Positions 6,726-26,100 of a DNA stretch of 37,336 nucleotides are shown one piece after another. The stretch comes from a bacterium. Lineage in GTDB: Bacteria > JAHJDO01. The DNA lies in assembly GCA_018812485.1 (NCBI GenBank), contig JAHJDO010000120.1:1-37336 (forward strand), in the 5' to 3' direction. Position 1 is the first letter of the stretch. Each line of letters starts with the position of its first letter. The notes beneath the pieces were generated by a model. That model ran no database searches, was not told the origin of the DNA, and saw only the letters and a list, made by a program, of their open reading frames with translations. A program made the position numbers and the translations under genes.

Positions 6726-8150
6726 CTATCTCTGTTTATAACCCAAAGCACTAAAGAGAGCTTTTGCCTTGTCCAAAGTTTCCTGATACTCTTCCTCTGG
6801 CACAGAATCAGCAACAATCCCTCCTCCTACTTGAAAACGAATTTCATTCTTTTTAGCAACTAATGTACGGATAAGTATATTCAAATCCATTTCACCGGAA
6901 AAGCTTAAATATCCAAGAGAACCTGTATATATTCCCCTTCTTGTTGGCTCAAGCTCCTCGATTATTTCCATAGCCCTGATCTTTGGCGCACCGGTAATAG
7001 ACCCTCCGGGAAAACATGCCCTTAACAGGTCAATCCTGTCCTTTCCCTTACTTAACCTGCCTCTAACCGTAGATGTTGTCTGAAAGACTGTAGAATATTT
7101 TTCAATATCTCTTCTGCTTTCCAGATATACGGATCCATATTCACATACTTTTCCTATATCATTTCTTTCAAGATCAACAATCATTATAAGCTCTGACTTG
7201 TCCTTTTCGCTCTTCAACAAATCATTCTTCAATCTCTCATCCTCTTTCTTTGTTTTTCCTCTTGGTCTGGTTCCTTTCATTGGCCTTGTTCTGACAACGC
7301 CATCCCTTAAACTAAGGAATCTCTCAGGAGAGGCACTTATAATAGATTCTTCTCCAAAATTCAGGAACCCTTCAAAAGGCGCAGGATTTATTTTGGTAAG
7401 ACGCTTATATAACTCAAAACTGTCCATACATAAATCAAAGATGAATCGCTGAGATAAATTCACCTGATATATATCACCTGCAGCAATATACTCCTTTATC
7501 CTATTTACAGTGCCTAGATAAGAAGCTTTTGTGAAATTGGAAAGAATATCTCTTTCATTAATAATAGAAGGAGAAACGATGGAATTATTGAACTTTTTGC
7601 CTTTTAATGCCCTTACCCTTAACCTGCCTAAAACTAGTTTTAATCTTTCTTCTGCTTTATTCTCTCCTGTAAGACCTTTCTCAGGAAAGCCTGTTGATAC
7701 TGCATAAAACTTGTTTTGGCTATAACTATACACAATCGCTAAATCATAAAAAGCCAGACAACAATCAGGAACATTAATATCATTCTTTGCTTTATTGGGT
7801 ATTTTCTCAAGTGTTCTTCCAAAATCGTACGAGAAATACCCCACACATCCTCCACAAAAAGGCACTGGGAAAATATTATTTTCAATTTGATAATCAGACA
7901 ATATTTTTCTTATAACTTCTAATACATCTGCGTTTTTCAATACATCTGACGAACCTCTATATGTAATCCTAACATCCGATCCCTCTGCCATTACCAACAG
8001 GAAAGGGTCACTTCCTATAAAAGCATACTCGCCAAGCCCATATTCATGCGTTCCGCTATCCAGAATAAACGAATAAGCAGACGTTTTAAATATCTCATAT
8101 ACTTGAATGGGAGATAAGTCTAACTTTATCTCTTCAATTAAAGGAATCAT
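6726..8150 (-). CDS. pabB: Aminodeoxychorismate synthase component I
   Basis: This chorismate-utilising enzyme aminates chorismate to 4-amino-4-deoxychorismate for p-aminobenzoate and folate synthesis, with a PabA glutaminase partner that is not in the window. The 474 residues show the family order: AFIGSDPF near 43, GCVGYFSYDF near 101, IAAGDIYQVNLSQRF near 222, PMKGTRPRG at 290-298, DLERNDIGKV near 327, FPGGSITGAPKIRAMEII near 373, YTGSLGYLS near 405, and the metal-binding C-terminal GGGIVADSVPEEEYQET. Lys292 in PMKGTRPRG matches the PabB active-site lysine; TrpE has Ala there (PIAGTRPRG), which favours PabB over anthranilate synthase. It diverges from the MC1 gene. Confidence 0.9.
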   Translation of the reverse strand: MIPLIEEIKLDLSPIQVYEIFKTSAYSFILDSGTHEYGLGEYAFIGSDPFLLVMAEGSDVRITYRGSSDVLKNADVLEVIRKILSDYQIENNIFPVPFCGGCVGYFSYDFGRTLEKIPNKAKNDINVPDCCLAFYDLAIVYSYSQNKFYAVSTGFPEKGLTGENKAEERLKLVLGRLRVRALKGKKFNNSIVSPSIINERDILSNFTKASYLGTVNRIKEYIAAGDIYQVNLSQRFIFDLCMDSFELYKRLTKINPAPFEGFLNFGEESIISASPERFLSLRDGVVRTRPMKGTRPRGKTKKEDERLKNDLLKSEKDKSELIMIVDLERNDIGKVCEYGSVYLESRRDIEKYSTVFQTTSTVRGRLSKGKDRIDLLRACFPGGSITGAPKIRAMEIIEELEPTRRGIYTGSLGYLSFSGEMDLNILIRTLVAKKNEIRFQVGGGIVADSVPEEEYQETLDKAKALFSALGYKQR

Positions 8151-8157
8151 TTTTTGT

Positions 8158-8187
8158 TTGCATTCTCCAATAGCTTTGCACTATAAT
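8158..8187 (+). promoter_or_regulatory. Promoter of the MC1-like gene
   Basis: TTGCAT (8158-8163), 18 bases, then a perfect TATAAT (8182-8187). It fits transcription starting near 8194 into the MC1-like gene. AGGAGG (8216-8221) is a near-ideal ribosome site seven bases before the ATG. The strength of both elements suggests high expression. Confidence 0.7.
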
Positions 8188-8228
8188 GTTATAAACTAAT
8201 AAGCCAACTAAAACAAGGAGGGAAAGGA

Positions 8229-8525
8229 ATGGCGACAGCAAAGCTCTACTCAGTAAGAATAGGCAAGAAGGAAGACCACGTATTTAAAGGAAAAGGCGCA
8301 AGACAGGCTGCTCTAAAAGCTGCTTCCAGAGGGCTGAAGGATTCTGACGGTCTCATCAAATTAAGAGAGCACAGCAAGAAAAAAGACGGCAAATGGAGAA
8401 TACACATATTTAAAGGTTCCGTAAAGAAAATCGCTAAACCTGCTAATGCACCTGCTTGGATGCCAAGTACAATAAACAAACCAGTTGTAAAAAAACTTCG
8501 CGTGGAAAAATTAGATAAAATCTAA
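8229..8525 (+). CDS. MC1-like chromosomal (DNA-bending) protein
   Basis: A 98-residue basic protein that matches methanogen chromosomal protein MC1 along its length: a short beta hairpin (YSVRIGKKEDHVFKGK, 7-22), RQAALKAASRG (25-35), IKLREH (43-48), the variable basic loop (SKKKDGKWRIHIFKG, 49-63) and the C-terminal PAWMPSTINKPVVKKLRVEKL (75-95). MC1 binds and sharply bends DNA, and is a main chromosomal protein of Methanosarcina and haloarchaea. The likely job here is nucleoid packaging. It is a single gene with its own consensus promoter, strong AGGAGG site and a rho-independent terminator, as expected for an abundant architectural protein. Codon use does not look foreign by eye. The surrounding genes are bacterial, so transfer from archaea or a bacterial branch of the family is implied. 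Confidence 0.9.
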   Translation: MATAKLYSVRIGKKEDHVFKGKGARQAALKAASRGLKDSDGLIKLREHSKKKDGKWRIHIFKGSVKKIAKPANAPAWMPSTINKPVVKKLRVEKLDKI

Positions 8526-8554: not shown

Positions 8555-8587
8555 AGCCTGCTGTTAACTGAACAGCAGGCTTTTCTA
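8555..8587 (+). terminator. Rho-independent terminator of the MC1-like gene
   Basis: A perfect 11-bp stem (8555-8565 with 8571-8581), a five-base loop (8566-8570), and a run of T from 8581. It ends three bases from the stop codon of map on the opposite strand, so it may also separate the two convergent transcripts. Confidence 0.92.
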
Positions 8588-9337
8588 TTAGGAAAGCGTA
8601 AGGATTTCCGTACTGTTATCAGTAATGGCTACAACATGTTCAAACTGTGCAGACAAGCTGCCATCAGAGCTGACAGCTGTCCACCCATCTGGTAGCACCT
8701 TTGTTTGATATGATCCTGCATTAATCATAGGCTCAATAGCTATAACCAGCCCTCTTTTGAGAGTAAATCCTGTACCTGATTTGCCAAAGTGTTGCACCTG
8801 TGGGTCTTCATGTGCACTTGATCCTATACCATGACCAACAAAATCTCTTACAACTGAAAAACCCTGTTGTTCAACATACGTCTGAATAGCATTACCAATG
8901 TCACCTAATCTGTTGTTTTCTATTGCTTCAGTAATACCAATATCTAAGGCCTCTTCTGTAACCTTAATAAGATTCTGTGCAAGAGAAGATATCTCTCCCA
9001 CAGGATAGGTAATTGCTTTATCTCCATAATAACCATTCTTGCAAACTCCAACATCTATAGTTATTATATCGCCTTCTCTCAAAATCTCATCTTTTCTTGG
9101 TATTCCATGAACTACTACATTATTAACAGAAGCACATATGCTGTTTGGATATCCTCTAAATCCCAAAAAAGATGGAACTGCATCAAAACTTCTAATATAG
9201 TCTTCAGCCAATCTATCTAAATAAAGAGTAGAAATACCAGGTTTAATATGTTTGGAAATATAATTCAAGGTTTGTGCAGTTAATTGACAGCTTAATCTTA
9301 TAAGTTTTATTTCTTCCGCTGATTTGTAATAAACCAC
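8588..9337 (-). CDS. map: Methionine aminopeptidase type I
   Basis: It removes N-terminal Met from nascent proteins in the cytoplasm. The 249 residues match the type Ia core. All metal ligands are present: Asp95 (IITIDVG), Asp106 (YGDKA), His169 (VGHGIG), Glu202 (AIEPMI) and Glu233 (QFEHVV); the substrate His77 is in VVHGIP. The start is GTG at 9337, two bases after the preceding stop, with no clear Shine-Dalgarno, so translation is probably coupled to the synthase gene upstream. It is the last gene of the four-gene minus-strand operon beginning with mtnP. Confidence 0.96.
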   Translation of the reverse strand: MVYYKSAEEIKLIRLSCQLTAQTLNYISKHIKPGISTLYLDRLAEDYIRSFDAVPSFLGFRGYPNSICASVNNVVVHGIPRKDEILREGDIITIDVGVCKNGYYGDKAITYPVGEISSLAQNLIKVTEEALDIGITEAIENNRLGDIGNAIQTYVEQQGFSVVRDFVGHGIGSSAHEDPQVQHFGKSGTGFTLKRGLVIAIEPMINAGSYQTKVLPDGWTAVSSDGSLSAQFEHVVAITDNSTEILTLS

Positions 9338-13110: not shown

Positions 13111-13674
13111 CTAAAACACCTCCCTTGTGAATAGAGAAAAATATTCTTCATTAATAACATCCACTTCATTCCCTGTGCCAACTGCTACCTGCAAAAATTC
13201 ATCTTTGCTGTTAAAAAACATCTCCCAATTATGAACCTTTTTTCTGTAAATATTCCAAAAATTGTTTATGCTTCTTCCGAATCGGCGTGTTATGTCTTCT
13301 TGAGGTATAGCATGCCCACCTTTTTTAACCCGGATATCTATTCTATGAATTGCTTCCTCAATGCTTTCCAGATATATATAAATTAATATTATCTTATATC
13401 CATCCTTTTTTATTTTAGCAATAACTTTAATTAGATATTTCCCTGCTAAGGTTGTTTCCACGACAAAAGAATCTTTCTTAATAATACAATTTTCTATTTT
13501 GGCAAAAAAGATTTTCCCTGCTTTTAGTCTCATTTTTTCTAATCTACTTGGAGACAATGTCTTTGCAATTTCATCAGCATTAATAAAAACCAGGTTTGTG
13601 TTTTTAATAAATTCTTTTGCGAATGTTGTTTTCCCACTTCCATTGGGACCAGCAATAATATATGCTAATTTCAC
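13111..13674 (-). CDS. Zeta-toxin-like P-loop kinase (COG4185 type)
   Basis: A 187-residue protein when started at GTG 13674, chosen because GGAGAG (13682-13687) lies seven bases upstream and the protein then begins with the P-loop strand [17 protein letters not shown] (Walker A at 9-17). A TTG 24 bases further upstream would add eight residues without support. Other zeta/AAA-kinase features are NADEIA (32-37, catalytic-type Asp34), VETTLAG (72-78), RIDIRVKKGGH (111-121) and RRFGRS (130-135), the likely ATP-binding basic lid. Zeta toxins phosphorylate UDP-GlcNAc and block wall synthesis; COG4185 members are mostly uncharacterised. It is followed without gap by a 57-residue gene, giving toxin-first order, and has its own promoter. 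Confidence 0.85.
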   Translation of the reverse strand: MKLAYIIAGPNGSGKTTFAKEFIKNTNLVFINADEIAKTLSPSRLEKMRLKAGKIFFAKIENCIIKKDSFVVETTLAGKYLIKVIAKIKKDGYKIILIYIYLESIEEAIHRIDIRVKKGGHAIPQEDITRRFGRSINNFWNIYRKKVHNWEMFFNSKDEFLQVAVGTGNEVDVINEEYFSLFTREVF

Positions 13675-13710
13675 AGTTAATCTCTCCGTATGCCTCAAAA
13701 ACTTTTTTAT

Positions 13711-18646: not shown

Positions 18647-21600
18647 TTGGATAATATTCACACAGCTGCCAATTTTATAGAACTAGAATCCAGAATAAAC
18701 AAATTTAGATTATTCTGGAAATGCATCAGGCTATTTGAGGGAATTACCATCTTCCTTTTTTCAATTCTAATATCAATAATAGCTGTTTTAGGTTTGGACA
18801 GTCTAATCCATTTTTCCCCCAGCATGCGTTTAGTTTGCCTTATTGCTTTCTGGACAGGAGCCATTACCTGCTTCGTAGCATTTATCATAAAACCAATGAT
18901 AAAATATTTCAACATTGACCAGGTCGCAGTACATATAGAAAAAGCATACCCCTATATTAATAACCGGCTCATAAACGCCATCCAATTGGGAAGGAAACTA
19001 GATTCTCACACAGCTGTCTTTACTGACGCACTCATAACAGATAGTTTAAAAACCACACAGATGTTAAGCCTGAAAAAAGCTGTAAATAAAAGGAAGTTAT
19101 GTGTATTTGCCTATCTTTTAGCAGGTTCTGTTCTTTTGACTACTCTCTACTTCGCGGCATTTCCCAGATATTTTAAGAATTCTTATGCAAGACTCATACA
19201 TCCTCTCAAAGACATTCCTCCAATTACACTAACCACATTAAATATAATGCCGGGGAATTGTACTGTGTTTACCGGCGATGATGTTATTATCATTACTTCT
19301 ATTAAAGGAGTAATGCCTTATGGAGCGGAGATCATATACAAATATGAGAATGAGAGAAAATATTCACATACACAAATGAATTTTAAAAACGACTCTTTCT
19401 TATACGAATTAAAAAACATAACTCAACCTGTAAAGTACAGAATTATTGCTGGTGATGGAAAGAGCGCTTTATATAGAATAGAAGTAAAAGAAAGACCGCA
19501 GGTTAAAAAGGTAAAGCTTACTTACAAGTATCCTGGATACACAAATCTTCCTATTAAAACAGTAGAGTCTGCTAATGGCCATATAGAGGCACTGATAGGA
19601 ACTAGAGTGGATACGCAATTCCATTTCAATAAACCTCTGAAAACCCTGGAAGTTAAACTAGATAAAAAGAGAATTAGTTTCTCTATGATCAAGCCTGAAA
19701 TCGCACAGGGAGAAATTCCCGTATTGAATGATGGAATCTATACTGTCTATTATACTGACATGCATGGATGCAGGAATCTGACTCCTGATAAGTATAGGAT
19801 TAAGACAATTGAGGATATATCTCCACTTGTCGAAATTACCTCTCCAGCAAAAAATCTCCAGTTAAGCAAAAAAGATTCCATCTCTATAACCAGTAAATCA
19901 GTTGATGACTATGGCATAAAAACAATAATATTAAAATGCACAAAAGACGCAACAGTCTACCCTTCTGATATAAGGAACTATGACATACCGAAAAAAGAAA
20001 TATTATCCAGTTTTAAGATTGATTTAAATAAAATGGATATAAAAACAGGAGATATTCTAACTTATTATGTTGAAGCAGTTGACAATACACTTCCAACAGT
20101 ACACAGGGCAATTTCAAAAAAATATAACATAGAAATTGTAGACAAAAAACAAAACTTGGATAAGGATAAAAAAATAAACGACATAATCGCAAAACTAAAA
20201 GAAATTATTTCTGAACAGATAGAGAATAAAAAAAGTGTAACTATACTAAACTCAGAAGAACACAACAATCCAAATATTGATAAAACATTAGGCAAACAGG
20301 TTGATATTCGAGCAAAAACCATTGAGATTATTTCTTCTATAGACGAGACACATCCTGTTTATAAATACAAAGATCGCTTAGACTATACATCTGCAGTTCT
20401 AATGGTAAAAGCTATTAAAGGTCTGGATTCCGCAAAAAATTCTACTTCTCCTGCAAAATTCAAACTTTATCTCCATGAAACTGAATTAACACAAGAAGAA
20501 ATAATACTAGTGCTTAAAGGTATATTATACCGTATTGAACAATTATCTCAGAATCAGGAGACAGTGATTGCAGAAAAGCCTGAAGAGGATACTGAAAAAG
20601 CACATCCCGTTCTTAAAAAGCTTGATGAAAATCTTTCAAAATTTCTTGAAGACCAGCAGGAAATTATAAAACAAACATCTGAACTTGCAAAAATAGGCTC
20701 CGAAGGGCTTTCAGAACAAGAAAAAGAGCAATTAAAAAAGCTTTCTATGCTTGAAAGCGAGTGGGGTAAGATATTTAAAAAAGCTGCGGATGATCTTTCG
20801 CGCCTGCCAGACGTGGATTTCCCTGCTTCAACATTAATTGAACAGACCAATCAACTCTTTAGCGATGTTGAAAAGATTGCCGATAACCTTGTTCCTAACA
20901 CAATAGAAATCGCTGTTCCTATTGAAGATGCAGGTTTACTATTGGCAAAACAATTAAAACAGGACCTTGAAATCTGGCTGCCCGATAAGCCTGATAGAGT
21001 AAAATGGAATATGGAACAACCCATTGGAGACTATGAAGTTCCTATGGCAGATTTACCTGATGAACTTGAAGATATGATTGGAGAACTTATTGAACAGGAG
21101 GAAGATTTGATTGATGAAGCTCAAAATATTACAAGTGCATGGGCTGATTCTATGGGCGAAGCTGGGTGGGAGGTTCAAGACGGGCCAATAAGTAATTTCA
21201 GCGCAAAGGGTAAAACTGGAAATGTTCTTCCGGATAGCTCTGAAATAACAGGAAGAAGCGGAGAAGGCAGAAGTGGTAAAACTTCAGGAGAACTTGTTCA
21301 AAGCAAAGTTATGGGACTTGGAGGCAGAAAAACACCAGCTCGTCTTACTTCTGACCCTTTTCAAAAAGGTATTATTCCAGAAGAAAAGGCAACAGAGACA
21401 GGTGGCGCGACTGGTGGAGGAAAGATAAGCGGCGCAGGTGGAGAAGGTCTGCCAGGCACACCGCCGCCTGAGGTAGAATTAAAATTAAGAATGCTGCACG
21501 ACAAACAGCTTCAGGTTCTGAGCAGAGCAAAGAATATTGCGAAAGGACTGGATAGACTCAATTATCCATCAGATATATTGAATGAAAGCATTAATTCAAT

Positions 21601-21853
21601 GCATGATGTATGTGAAAACATCAAAAATTACCAGGCTCAAAGGCTCCTTCGGACACAGCAGATCATATTAACCAAGCTCAAGGATGCACAAACATCAGTT
21701 GTGTATATAAGCAAGGCACGCCGCGATAGATCAATAGGCATGCCAAAGGATTTACGAAAGAAACTAACAACCGTCAAAGACGAGGAATACATCCCCAAAT
21801 ACAACAAACTCCTCAAAGCCTACTACGAAAAACTTTCAAACCCGGATATGTAG
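18647..21853 (+). CDS. DUF4175-like large membrane protein with coiled coil
   Basis: A 1068-residue protein starting at TTG 18647, ten bases after AGGAG (18632-18636). Three hydrophobic helices are visible near residues 29-50, 60-83 and 150-171. Between the second and third lies the DQVAVHIEKAYPYINNRLINAIQL segment typical of DUF4175-type proteins. A long extracytoplasmic beta-rich part (about 180-520) includes Ig/cadherin-like stretches (YKYPGYTN, LVEITSPAKNLQLSKKDSISI). The region from about 620 to 860 is charged and predicted coiled coil. A Gly/Ser-rich linker (about 880-960) precedes a final helical domain to the end. Function is unknown; in related genomes the gene usually accompanies MoxR/DUF58/VWA envelope operons, but here it stands alone. 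Confidence 0.72.
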   Translation: MDNIHTAANFIELESRINKFRLFWKCIRLFEGITIFLFSILISIIAVLGLDSLIHFSPSMRLVCLIAFWTGAITCFVAFIIKPMIKYFNIDQVAVHIEKAYPYINNRLINAIQLGRKLDSHTAVFTDALITDSLKTTQMLSLKKAVNKRKLCVFAYLLAGSVLLTTLYFAAFPRYFKNSYARLIHPLKDIPPITLTTLNIMPGNCTVFTGDDVIIITSIKGVMPYGAEIIYKYENERKYSHTQMNFKNDSFLYELKNITQPVKYRIIAGDGKSALYRIEVKERPQVKKVKLTYKYPGYTNLPIKTVESANGHIEALIGTRVDTQFHFNKPLKTLEVKLDKKRISFSMIKPEIAQGEIPVLNDGIYTVYYTDMHGCRNLTPDKYRIKTIEDISPLVEITSPAKNLQLSKKDSISITSKSVDDYGIKTIILKCTKDATVYPSDIRNYDIPKKEILSSFKIDLNKMDIKTGDILTYYVEAVDNTLPTVHRAISKKYNIEIVDKKQNLDKDKKINDIIAKLKEIISEQIENKKSVTILNSEEHNNPNIDKTLGKQVDIRAKTIEIISSIDETHPVYKYKDRLDYTSAVLMVKAIKGLDSAKNSTSPAKFKLYLHETELTQEEIILVLKGILYRIEQLSQNQETVIAEKPEEDTEKAHPVLKKLDENLSKFLEDQQEIIKQTSELAKIGSEGLSEQEKEQLKKLSMLESEWGKIFKKAADDLSRLPDVDFPASTLIEQTNQLFSDVEKIADNLVPNTIEIAVPIEDAGLLLAKQLKQDLEIWLPDKPDRVKWNMEQPIGDYEVPMADLPDELEDMIGELIEQEEDLIDEAQNITSAWADSMGEAGWEVQDGPISNFSAKGKTGNVLPDSSEITGRSGEGRSGKTSGELVQSKVMGLGGRKTPARLTSDPFQKGIIPEEKATETGGATGGGKISGAGGEGLPGTPPPEVELKLRMLHDKQLQVLSRAKNIAKGLDRLNYPSDILNESINSMHDVCENIKNYQAQRLLRTQQIILTKLKDAQTSVVYISKARRDRSIGMPKDLRKKLTTVKDEEYIPKYNKLLKAYYEKLSNPDM

Positions 21854-23435: not shown

Positions 23436-24247
23436 CAAAATTAATAAGTATGCAACAAGCAGTTGAAAATTTTAAAGAATTAATCGAGAATTCGGTTAAG
23501 GAAAGCGGAATAAAAGGTAAAGAAGCAATGATACGTTCTTCTAAAATGATAAATAATATTCACGAAGCTGTTAAAGCTGATTTACTCAGAAATGGAATTG
23601 CACCTTACCGAATACACCCACCTTTGGGAGAAACAAAGCCTGAATTAAAATTGGCTGGCTTTATTAAACAAAAAAATCAAGATGTTTGCGTATCTCCTGA
23701 AGGTTATGTTCCAAAAGAGCAAATATTAACTGAAGGAATATTAAGGGAAGCGCAAGATTATTATGGAGAAGATTACACAGAGCGGACAATATCAATCAAT
23801 ATCAGAAGCCAAATGAGTTCCTTGGCTAAAAATTTTGATACATTATATGAAAGAACTATTGCAGAGGCTCAAAACTTACACGTAAGATGTCCAAAAATGG
23901 TATTAGGTGAAGTTTATATGATACCTGTCAAAGAGTATGATGCAGAAGCAATGAAATCCAATAAGATAAACTTTATTGATAAAATTGGTGCTGTTGAAAA
24001 ATACATAAAATCATTTCAAGCCATCAATGGCAGAACTGATACATCTAAAGAAGAATACAAATATGAGAGAGTCTGCCTATTGCTTGTTGATTTCAAAAAA
24101 AGCCCTGTCAAAATTTATAGCACAAATCAAGACCTATACAATGACGGTTTGCTTGAAGAAAAATCAGATGCAAGTATAGACGAACTATCTTGGGAATCAT
24201 TCACAACAAATATTTTGCAAATTTACGAAACAAGATTTGGAAATTGA
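23432..24247 (+). CDS. Type II restriction endonuclease, family not recognised
   Basis: A 271-residue protein whose identity rests on position: it starts at GTG inside the controller stop codon (GTGA, 23432-23435), with AAGGA about nine bases upstream, and faces a DNA methyltransferase gene. I do not recognise the family. Visible features include a helical N-terminus with a short basic GIKGKEAMIRSSKMI stretch, the conserved-looking block ERTISINIRSQMSSLAKN (about 119-136), LYERTIAEAQNLHVRCPKMVLGEVYMIPV, and VCLLLVDFKKSPVKIY near the C-terminus; the last two could supply acidic and lysine residues of a PD-(D/E)XK site, but the motif is not certain. The cleavage specificity is unknown. Its 3' end overlaps the methyltransferase gene by 25 bases. 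Confidence 0.75.
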   Translation: MTKLISMQQAVENFKELIENSVKESGIKGKEAMIRSSKMINNIHEAVKADLLRNGIAPYRIHPPLGETKPELKLAGFIKQKNQDVCVSPEGYVPKEQILTEGILREAQDYYGEDYTERTISINIRSQMSSLAKNFDTLYERTIAEAQNLHVRCPKMVLGEVYMIPVKEYDAEAMKSNKINFIDKIGAVEKYIKSFQAINGRTDTSKEEYKYERVCLLLVDFKKSPVKIYSTNQDLYNDGLLEEKSDASIDELSWESFTTNILQIYETRFGN

Positions 24248-26100
24248 ATTTTAAGTTGATATTTAGTAACTAAAAATTTATCTATTTCTGTTTTATTTTC
24301 CAAACTTCTTAAGACATTCAATTCTTTACCGGTAAAGTTAGGAATTGTAAACTTCTCAATAAAATTTTTTTGATAGCAAGGATACCCACCTTGAATGGAA
24401 ACACTTGTTTTGGTTACATAATAATCCATAACAATTGAGTTAAGGATTTTTCGAACAAATTTTATATTTTCTTCTTTCGAAAATGGATTGATTAGATTTT
24501 TAAAAAAAGTTTGTTTGTTATTATAGAAATAAATCCCATACCCGTTCGTAAAATAAGCGTCTTCTTCTTCAACCAATAAAAATCTCGGATGTTTGCTAAA
24601 AGTTGGGTTTAGTATTTTTTTCCCGGTTCTTGCAATTCCTTGCGTTCGCCCCCAAACATAAAATGGATCAAATTTTGTTTTCCCTTTGTCTCTGCTATTT
24701 AATTTCTCCTTTTCTGATAATAGATATTCGTAGCAGTTAAAATATTTTTTTTGGAACTCTTTTTCTGAAATTGGAACAGCGTTTCTATTAATTATTCTAT
24801 ACGGTGTAATTATTCTTAACGTATTTGATTTAATTTCTTCTTGCGATTTGAAATTAGATATTTTATAAACAGGCTTAGTTATTTCTTTTTCGATGTAAAA
24901 TGTTCCGTTCTCGGTAGTTTTTTGTAACAATCCATTTTTCTCAAATTTTCTGTCAATGAAAAATACTTCATCTTTTAAAGTCGCAATGCCAACAGCAATG
25001 TTAAACAATTGCTTAATTGGTGTTCCAATAGTTTCAATTATCCGGATGTTTTCTTGTTCGTCTGTTTTCAATAATCTCCATTTTTTAACATTGAGATTTG
25101 ATATGAAATTTGGAGACCAATTTGCTGAAAACAAAAATTCATCTGTTTTCTGTTCGTCTTTTATTTTGTCATACAATATTGATTCATTTCCCTTTTTATC
25201 GGCAAATGTAATCGCTGTGTATGTTTGAGCATCAAAAACTTTTTTGTGTCTAAAATCTGCTATCTGTTTTATGCATTTTGTGTTTAAGAAAAATTTACGA
25301 AGAGATAATCCTGCAAGCGAAGTGAAATAGTTATTTGGTGTTATATAGCCTAATCTACCATTTTTTGTTAAAAGTTTATAGCCTAACTCAAAAAATGCAA
25401 AATATAGATTAAACGTTCCGTTTTCTATTGTTTTCCAATTCCTTATTAAACATTCTCTGTTTTCATCAGACAAGTCTTGATACTTTACATATGGTGGATT
25501 TCCTACTATTACTTCAAATTCTTCTTTCCACTCTGCCTTTAAACTGTCTTGGTGATATAAGTTAAAGTCATTTTCTTCAATGATTTCATTATGAAGCAAT
25601 CCGTAAATACTTAAAATGATTTTTGCTCTTTCAATGTTGTATTTAAGAATATCAGAACCAAAGATATTTTCTTTAATTGTATCTTTGATGGTTTTATTAT
25701 AGGTTGTTCTATAATATTCAACCAATCCAATTAAGAAAGCACCACAACCACAACTGGGGTCTAAACATTTGTCTGTTTCTTTTGGTGCTGTTTCTTTAAC
25801 AATAAAATCTACAACATAATTTGGAGTAAAAAACGCGCCATTTAATTCTCGGTCTTCTTTCGGTATTAATAGTTCAAGATAGTTTTCAAATTGCTTTACT
25901 GTTTCAATTTCAAGAGATGAAACAAGTAAATATAGTTGGGGTTCAACACTAAAATCAGACAATAAATTACTGATAATTGAGCTGTCTTTATAGTGCAATT
26001 GTTGGTTGTTCAAAAATGAGTATACTAAATGCTTTTCAATTAATGAGATGTCGTTTGTATTTATAAGTTTATTTATGATGTTCTTATTTGGCATCTTCAT
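24223..26100 (-). CDS. N6-adenine DNA methyltransferase (gamma class, TaqI/Eco57I-like)
   Basis: A 625-residue SAM-dependent methyltransferase that methylates adenine in the recognition site and protects the host from the neighbouring endonuclease. Motif order is that of the gamma class: motif X GAFFTPNYVVDFI (88-100), motif I LDPSCGCGAFLIG (113-125), motif IV NPPYVKYQDL (201-210), and the remaining catalytic motifs to about 290. The C-terminal half (about 340-625) is a TaqI-type target-recognition region. The target sequence is unknown. It is convergent with the endonuclease gene, ends overlapping by 25 bases, and has a weak AAGGA site about ten bases before the ATG. The gene is very AT-rich. 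Confidence 0.93.
   Translation of the reverse strand: MKMPNKNIINKLINTNDISLIEKHLVYSFLNNQQLHYKDSSIISNLLSDFSVEPQLYLLVSSLEIETVKQFENYLELLIPKEDRELNGAFFTPNYVVDFIVKETAPKETDKCLDPSCGCGAFLIGLVEYYRTTYNKTIKDTIKENIFGSDILKYNIERAKIILSIYGLLHNEIIEENDFNLYHQDSLKAEWKEEFEVIVGNPPYVKYQDLSDENRECLIRNWKTIENGTFNLYFAFFELGYKLLTKNGRLGYITPNNYFTSLAGLSLRKFFLNTKCIKQIADFRHKKVFDAQTYTAITFADKKGNESILYDKIKDEQKTDEFLFSANWSPNFISNLNVKKWRLLKTDEQENIRIIETIGTPIKQLFNIAVGIATLKDEVFFIDRKFEKNGLLQKTTENGTFYIEKEITKPVYKISNFKSQEEIKSNTLRIITPYRIINRNAVPISEKEFQKKYFNCYEYLLSEKEKLNSRDKGKTKFDPFYVWGRTQGIARTGKKILNPTFSKHPRFLLVEEEDAYFTNGYGIYFYNNKQTFFKNLINPFSKEENIKFVRKILNSIVMDYYVTKTSVSIQGGYPCYQKNFIEKFTIPNFTGKELNVLRSLENKTEIDKFLVTKYQLKIQFPNLVS

Follow-up and report, generated by a model that had tools for sequence, protein, structure and literature searches.

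How does a gene for MC1, treated until now as a euryarchaeal chromatin protein, come to stand in a bacterial genome, and what could its product do there? The window analysed here is a whole contig of 37,336 nucleotides (C120) from a 2.68-Mb genome bin that is 96% complete with ~5% contamination. On its forward strand, at 8229..8525, lies a gene for a single-domain protein of 98 aa (10.9 kDa, pI 10.6) with 27 K+R and 8 D+E residues. An earlier note, made from the letters of this DNA, had read the product as MC1 along its length, pointing to an RQAALKAA block and a PAWMP...KKLRVEKL-type end as in the methanogen protein. Searches bear this reading out. The Pfam MC1 profile (PF05854) aligns residues 14-96 with positions 13-96 of its 96 (E 4.2e-20) at 72.3 bits, compared with a curated cut-off of 23 bits. 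A phmmer search of all PDB sequences returned Methanosarcina MC1 (1t23, 2khl, 2nbj; E 2.5e-16) as its sole family, in an alignment that takes in both the RQAALKAA and the PAWMP...KP.VKK.R.EKL blocks. The match is specific, because the MC1 profile found proteins only in Haloferax and Methanosarcina among 14 control genomes; in NCBIfam no model matches the window protein. Judged by its sequence, then, the product of 8229-8525 is a genuine MC1.

The predicted structure has the same layout. An AF2 model of the window protein (pLDDT 88.9) follows the MC1 order b1-b2-helix-b3-b4-b5, with strands at residues 5-11, 14-21, 42-47, 56-69 and 81-95 and a helix at 24-34; the published MC1 elements lie at 4-9, 15-21, 25-34, 43-49, 54-66 and 78-90 (PMC3928310). 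A model of an archaeal control MC1 gave the same order of elements. Foldseek did not place 1T23 among the best 50 matches of the window model; the archaeal control retrieved it, but with a poor fit (TM 0.47, rmsd 8.3 Å at 76% identity). Because searching an AF2 model against an NMR structure has low power for the MC1 fold, the family assignment rests on sequence.

The gene sits among ordinary bacterial housekeeping genes, as the note had said of every neighbour. By Pfam, an anthranilate synthase component I-like gene (6726..8150, minus strand) and an EPSP synthase gene lie on the left, and a type I methionine aminopeptidase gene (Peptidase_M24; 8588..9337, minus strand) and a gene for a LeuA-type enzyme on the right. 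MC1 occurs in all five genomes examined of the window's phylum, which belong to one genus, in two or three copies each. The aminopeptidase gene is beside MC1 in all five and the anthranilate synthase gene adjoins the window-type copy in four (the window's genome, G002, G003 and G004); in G001, MC1 lies near a contig end and that side is missing. The window's genome has two further MC1 genes, on C136 and C79. One paralogue, 'a', occurs in 5/5 genomes and has a double-zinc-ribbon/phosphoribosyltransferase gene as its neighbour; in four of them a VTT-domain gene lies upstream. A third occurs on C79 of the window's genome (G000; L116:7255-7563) and C42 of G003 (L117:3510-3818), with identical protein sequence in both; its neighbour is a DUF5615 (PIN/Mut7-C-like) gene, its surroundings are less conserved, and it lacks the promoter that the other two paralogues conserve. 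The same bin also contains a second, GC-rich 16S rRNA fragment (C168:83-648) unlike its own 16S on C48, marking C168 as a contaminating contig.

To place these copies in a wider setting, we turn to a scan of 84,980 species genomes, which beyond the bins of the window's phylum yielded one further bacterial bin, D14_bin-0225 (71% identity); the sequence patterns used miss several members of that bin's phylum, so the bacterial distribution is a lower bound. In the phylum of D14_bin-0225 (hereafter the second phylum), which shares no rank below the domain Bacteria with the window's genome, MC1 is present in 6 of 7 genomes examined. Here too gene order is shared: in four genomes MC1 stands between a TPR-protein gene and a gene for a nucleotide-sugar epimerase. 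An ABC transporter precedes this group, and on contigs that extend far enough, genes for a glycosyltransferase and RNase Y follow at a distance. The second-phylum genome G009 (10 contigs, 92% complete, 1% contamination) has MC1 and HU on one 593-kb contig, at 261 kb and 132 kb respectively. In a spread of 385 genomes around the window's genome, true matches came only from its own genus (five) and the second phylum (three); thus, among the 380 bacterial genomes outside the genus, true MC1 was confined to the second phylum. A second, overlapping spread centred on the second phylum gave the same distribution. A weak match in G201, at the same locus as G581, lies in a frame whose flanks look, by eye, like an RlmE-like rRNA methyltransferase, and was discarded. 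In G012 (contig C159, 1895-2155) the MC1 frame is stopped by a TGA before the C-terminal strand and may represent a pseudogene, a sequencing error or a frame problem.

Could the gene nevertheless be an artefact of binning or assembly, an archaeal gene or contig lodged within bacterial genomes? All of these genomes are metagenome bins, that of the window has its measure of contamination and the foreign 16S fragment on C168, and one bin, G011, does include a contig of archaeal character that encodes an archaeal-type MC1. We nonetheless give this explanation next to no weight. Gene order around MC1 is shared by independent genomes of two phyla, bacterial housekeeping genes stand on both flanks, a loop insert (described below) is confined to the bacterial copies, and in G009 the gene is interior to a long contig that also bears HU. 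Since gene order is conserved across several independent bins, a stray archaeal contig is excluded; conserved synteny and the diagnostic insert likewise led us to reject contamination and chimerism. With synteny in five genomes and syntenic copies in the second phylum, the contig is neither archaeal nor chimeric, either of which the earlier note had named as grounds for giving up its claim. The host is a bacterium, and the MC1 gene belongs to its genome and is not a contaminant.

The copy in G011 is a separate matter. It lies at 7683-8060 within the segment C2:46000-60556 of a bacterial bin, lacks the insert, and has a Salactin homologue as its neighbour and a SET-domain gene ~1.3 kb away; short ORFs are numerous on this contig. 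This is probably a mis-binned archaeal contig or an archaeal mobile element; in Methanosarcina mazei a SET protein methylates an MC1 (PMC6776556).

Mobile elements offer another account of the bacterial genes themselves, in which MC1 would be cargo of a plasmid, phage or virus and would package the element's DNA. Plasmids of the archaea Methanoperedens and Halococcus do encode MC1 (PMC9674854), a distant form of the protein occurs in Chlorella viruses (PMC8715426), and the C79/C42 paralogue pair, next to its DUF5615 gene, has a less conserved setting. Against this, the window-type and 'a' copies occupy conserved housekeeping neighbourhoods, and no relative was found in 2.9 million viral contigs, in phage records or in non-archaeal plasmids. 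A cargo role is thus very unlikely in our estimation, and the idea that the bacterial copies came from viruses or plasmids, for which the searches of viral, phage and non-archaeal plasmid sequences gave no support, was set aside.

The relationship of the bacterial proteins to those of archaea, which the note had proposed examining by phylogeny, was addressed with a 94-sequence tree, in which all 19 bacterial MC1s form one clade with 100/100 support on a long branch (1.6 changes per column), beside Methanosarcinales-type MC1. The clade attaches among sequences of the Methanotrichaceae with modest support. Because similarity to the query decided which 75 archaeal sequences entered the tree, and because MC1 is a short protein, the exact donor lineage is left broad. 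The distribution of MC1 is broad in archaea and narrow in bacteria, which suggests that transfer ran from archaea to bacteria.

How two such distant bacterial phyla came to share the gene is a further question. The MC1 proteins of the second phylum share 70-76% identity with the window protein, and an AU test rejected neither of two trees in which the copies of one phylum form a single clade (p = 0.15 and 0.22). With ribosomal protein L2, the second phylum matched at only 1e-105 to 1e-111 and many other bacteria at up to 1e-125; by this single marker the two phyla do not come out close to each other. Identity of L2 to that of the window's genome was 63% in one second-phylum genome among the matches listed. 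Because MC1 is the more similar of the two proteins (70-76% vs 63%) and the phyla are not neighbours by L2, transfer between bacteria looks more likely than common descent for their MC1 genes, as far as one marker can suggest.

All 19 bacterial copies differ from all 75 archaeal ones by five additional residues in the beta3-beta4 loop (LP4). In the window protein the insert reads DGKWR (residues 53-57; 8385..8399, forward strand) and in other bacterial copies DGLYR or DGYYR. It lies next to the K53/K54/H56 region of MC1, not in the intercalating arm LP5; K54 and H56 touch DNA phosphates in the archaeal complex (PMC6776556). A longer basic loop at about residues 49-63, which may alter bending, had been proposed from the letters alone. 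The difference in the loop is real and diagnostic of the bacterial proteins (19/19 vs 0/75), but it comes to five residues, not fifteen, and in DGKWR these have a net charge of only +1.

Mutagenesis and NMR of archaeal MC1 have shown which residues matter: R25, P72 and W74 both bind and bend DNA, which H56 and K86 also contact (PMC3928310, PMC6776556). R25 neutralizes phosphates in the compressed major groove, and the arm residues P72-A73-W74-M75 insert into the minor groove or intercalate there (PMC3928310, PMC6776556). Q23 is a helper contact. In the Methanosarcina thermophila protein, DNA binding and bending both suffer when R25, P72, W74 or I89 is mutated, whereas the R71A mutant bends DNA slightly more (PMC3928310). 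The window protein keeps R25, P75, W77, M78 and K89, which correspond to archaeal R25, P72, W74, M75 and K86. The Arg25 codon (8301..8303, forward strand) specifies a residue invariant in the 19 bacterial and 75 archaeal sequences. By alignment, the codons for P75-A76-W77-M78 (8451..8462, forward strand) specify the archaeal arm, whose P and W are invariant in both groups and whose M75 equivalent is kept in 17 of the 19 bacterial proteins. Equivalents of R25, K30, H56, P72 and W74 are invariant in all 19, and that of K86 is kept wherever the sequence is complete. Elsewhere there is change: archaeal I89 is V92 in the window protein and V or L in bacteria (V is also seen in archaea), and the R71 position carries A in the bacterial copies, a trait of many Methanothrix proteins too. 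None of the bacterial copies keeps Q23, which is replaced by G or S, and the second phylum has lost Q26. The main DNA-bending residues (R25, P72, W74 and K86) are retained, and the set as a whole predicts a working DNA bender.

The same comparison bears on whether the bacterial clade has instead changed function, for example to RNA binding, and lost DNA bending. Such a shift would fit the loss of Q23 and partial loss of Q26, the new insert with its aromatic W56 near the region that contacts the A-tract, and the long branch leading to the clade. The retained equivalents of R25, P72, W74, K86 and H56, which in archaea bind, bend or contact DNA, argue the other way, and we consider a change of function unlikely.

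The MC1 gene most likely forms its own monocistronic unit of sigma-70 type, as read from its flanking signals. A promoter at 8158..8187 on the forward strand combines TTGCAT (8158-8163) and TATAAT (8182-8187) across an 18-bp spacer. Within the phylum, the other orthologues of the window gene and the 'a' paralogues have this arrangement too, their -10 elements differing slightly. The earlier note had called this promoter consensus; the -10 is indeed a perfect TATAAT, but the -35, TTGCAT, falls short of the full consensus, and a consensus promoter scanner did not score this promoter, although related genomes keep it. Its AGGAGG site and strong terminator are both real and recur in related genomes: a Shine-Dalgarno sequence, AAGGAGG, lies 7 nt before the ATG (8215..8221, forward strand), and an intrinsic terminator (8555..8589, forward strand), with an 11-bp stem and 5-nt loop at 8555-8581 and a T-rich tail, occupies the same place in orthologues with changed stems. 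The note had also expected an abundant nucleoid protein. Despite the conserved promoter, Shine-Dalgarno sequence and terminator, codon usage gives no signature of high expression: the three MC1 genes and HU are no closer to the ribosomal-protein genes than the background is, the ribosomal-protein set is itself barely biased in its codons, and the window copy scores under background. High abundance is for this reason something that we infer at most.

The earlier note had further suggested looking for HU or IHF in the same genome, and an HU gene (PF00216) is there. Exactly one is present in each of the five genomes of the window's phylum, and HU was found in 5 of 7 second-phylum genomes; the archaeal histone profile (PF00808) had no match in the five genomes of the window's phylum. 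A replacement of HU by MC1 in the window's phylum is therefore ruled out by the single HU gene in 5/5 genomes, and the proposal that this lineage packages its DNA with MC1 stays, for bulk packaging, a conjecture. Given HU in all five and in five of the seven genomes, MC1 is most likely an additional DNA-bending nucleoid protein that acts beside HU. We put at roughly three in four the probability of the reading as a whole, namely that this is a true MC1, archaeal in origin, vertically inherited and duplicated in at least two bacterial phyla, and serving as an architectural protein alongside HU.

A genuine MC1 fold might also serve as a low-abundance specialist that acts on four-way junctions, on intermediates of repair or recombination, or at particular promoters. 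HU is already present, MC1 codon usage is unremarkable, archaeal MC1 prefers bent DNA and four-way junctions (PMC3928310, PMC6776556), and several paralogues per genome could split such roles. Yet in charge, size, monocistronic unit, and strong Shine-Dalgarno sequence and terminator the gene and its product resemble general nucleoid proteins, and no conserved repair or recombination genes adjoin MC1. A specialist role is possible but, on balance, doubtful.

Under the preferred reading, of an architectural protein beside HU, the small, basic MC1 would bind double-stranded DNA as a monomer, without strong sequence specificity, and bend it sharply. At one end of the site P75 and W77 would enter the minor groove, while beta5 would hold the A-tract side with its basic and aliphatic residues and R25 would neutralize the compressed major groove. 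The gene would have entered bacteria from a Methanosarcinales-like archaeal source and gained the five-residue insert in LP4; it would then have reached at least two bacterial phyla, to be inherited vertically and duplicated thereafter to two or three copies per genome. Expressed from its own sigma-70-type unit, the protein would most likely act as an extra architectural nucleoid protein beside HU. More tentatively, though with some plausibility, the two phyla may have a mixed chromatin in which multiple loop-bearing MC1 paralogues, fixed and diversified after transfer from archaea to bacteria, are major DNA benders together with HU.

Comparison with known systems shows what is shared and what is particular to the bacterial protein. 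MC1 of M. thermophila CHTI55 (1T23, 2KHL, 2NBJ) belongs to the same family over window residues 14-96, has the same order of strands and helix, and shares the P-x-W-M-P arm, R25, K30, H56, K81, K85, K86, R88 and K91. The window protein differs from it by the five-residue LP4 insert and by Q23->G, W61->S, R71->A and I89->V, and in occurring in a bacterial host with HU, among two or three insert-bearing paralogues. The nearest archaeal sequences are those of the Methanotrichaceae (Methanothrix; 52-57% identity), which like the bacterial proteins have a NAP[AD]WMP arm and Ala at the R71 position; unlike them, they come from archaeal hosts, lack the LP4 insert and have a shorter helix-beta3 loop. 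The histones of Bdellovibrio and Leptospira (PMC10627809) are likewise an archaeal-type chromatin family in particular bacterial lineages; theirs is a histone fold, in contrast to the MC1 barrel, and the five genomes of the window's phylum gave no match to it. HTa of Thermoplasma, an HU homologue (PMC6877293, PMC7613761), is also a nucleoid protein that moved across domains and was fixed in a lineage, but it went in the opposite direction, from bacteria to archaea, and is of another protein family.

According to a fold survey of 2017, only archaea and viruses of eukaryotes share MC1 (PMC5671483); a study of nucleoid proteins across 1,419 archaeal genomes, published in 2022, discusses how MC1 was transferred among archaea (PMC7613761). 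In the open-access literature we found no published mention of bacterial MC1; an earlier report elsewhere is possible. The protein is a new, bacteria-specific variant of the known family, with a presumptive role in the nucleoid, and MC1 derived from archaea now appears to be a stable part of bacterial chromosomes. Much as with the recently discovered bacterial histones, a conserved MC1 subfamily in bacteria beside HU offers a natural experiment: can a bacterial nucleoid take in a foreign DNA bender, and how is the work then divided with HU? The insert and the lost Q23 contact also provide direct handles on how MC1 bends DNA.

Several other genes in the window deserve brief mention. A 625-aa Eco57I/N6-adenine DNA methyltransferase-like protein (24223-26100, minus strand) has weak similarity to BREX/MADS methylases, with no restriction partner among the flanking ORFs scanned. 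The 1068-aa ORF at 18647-21853 (forward strand) has no Pfam or NCBIfam match, and a Zeta-toxin-like P-loop kinase of 195 aa is encoded at 13111-13698 on the minus strand.
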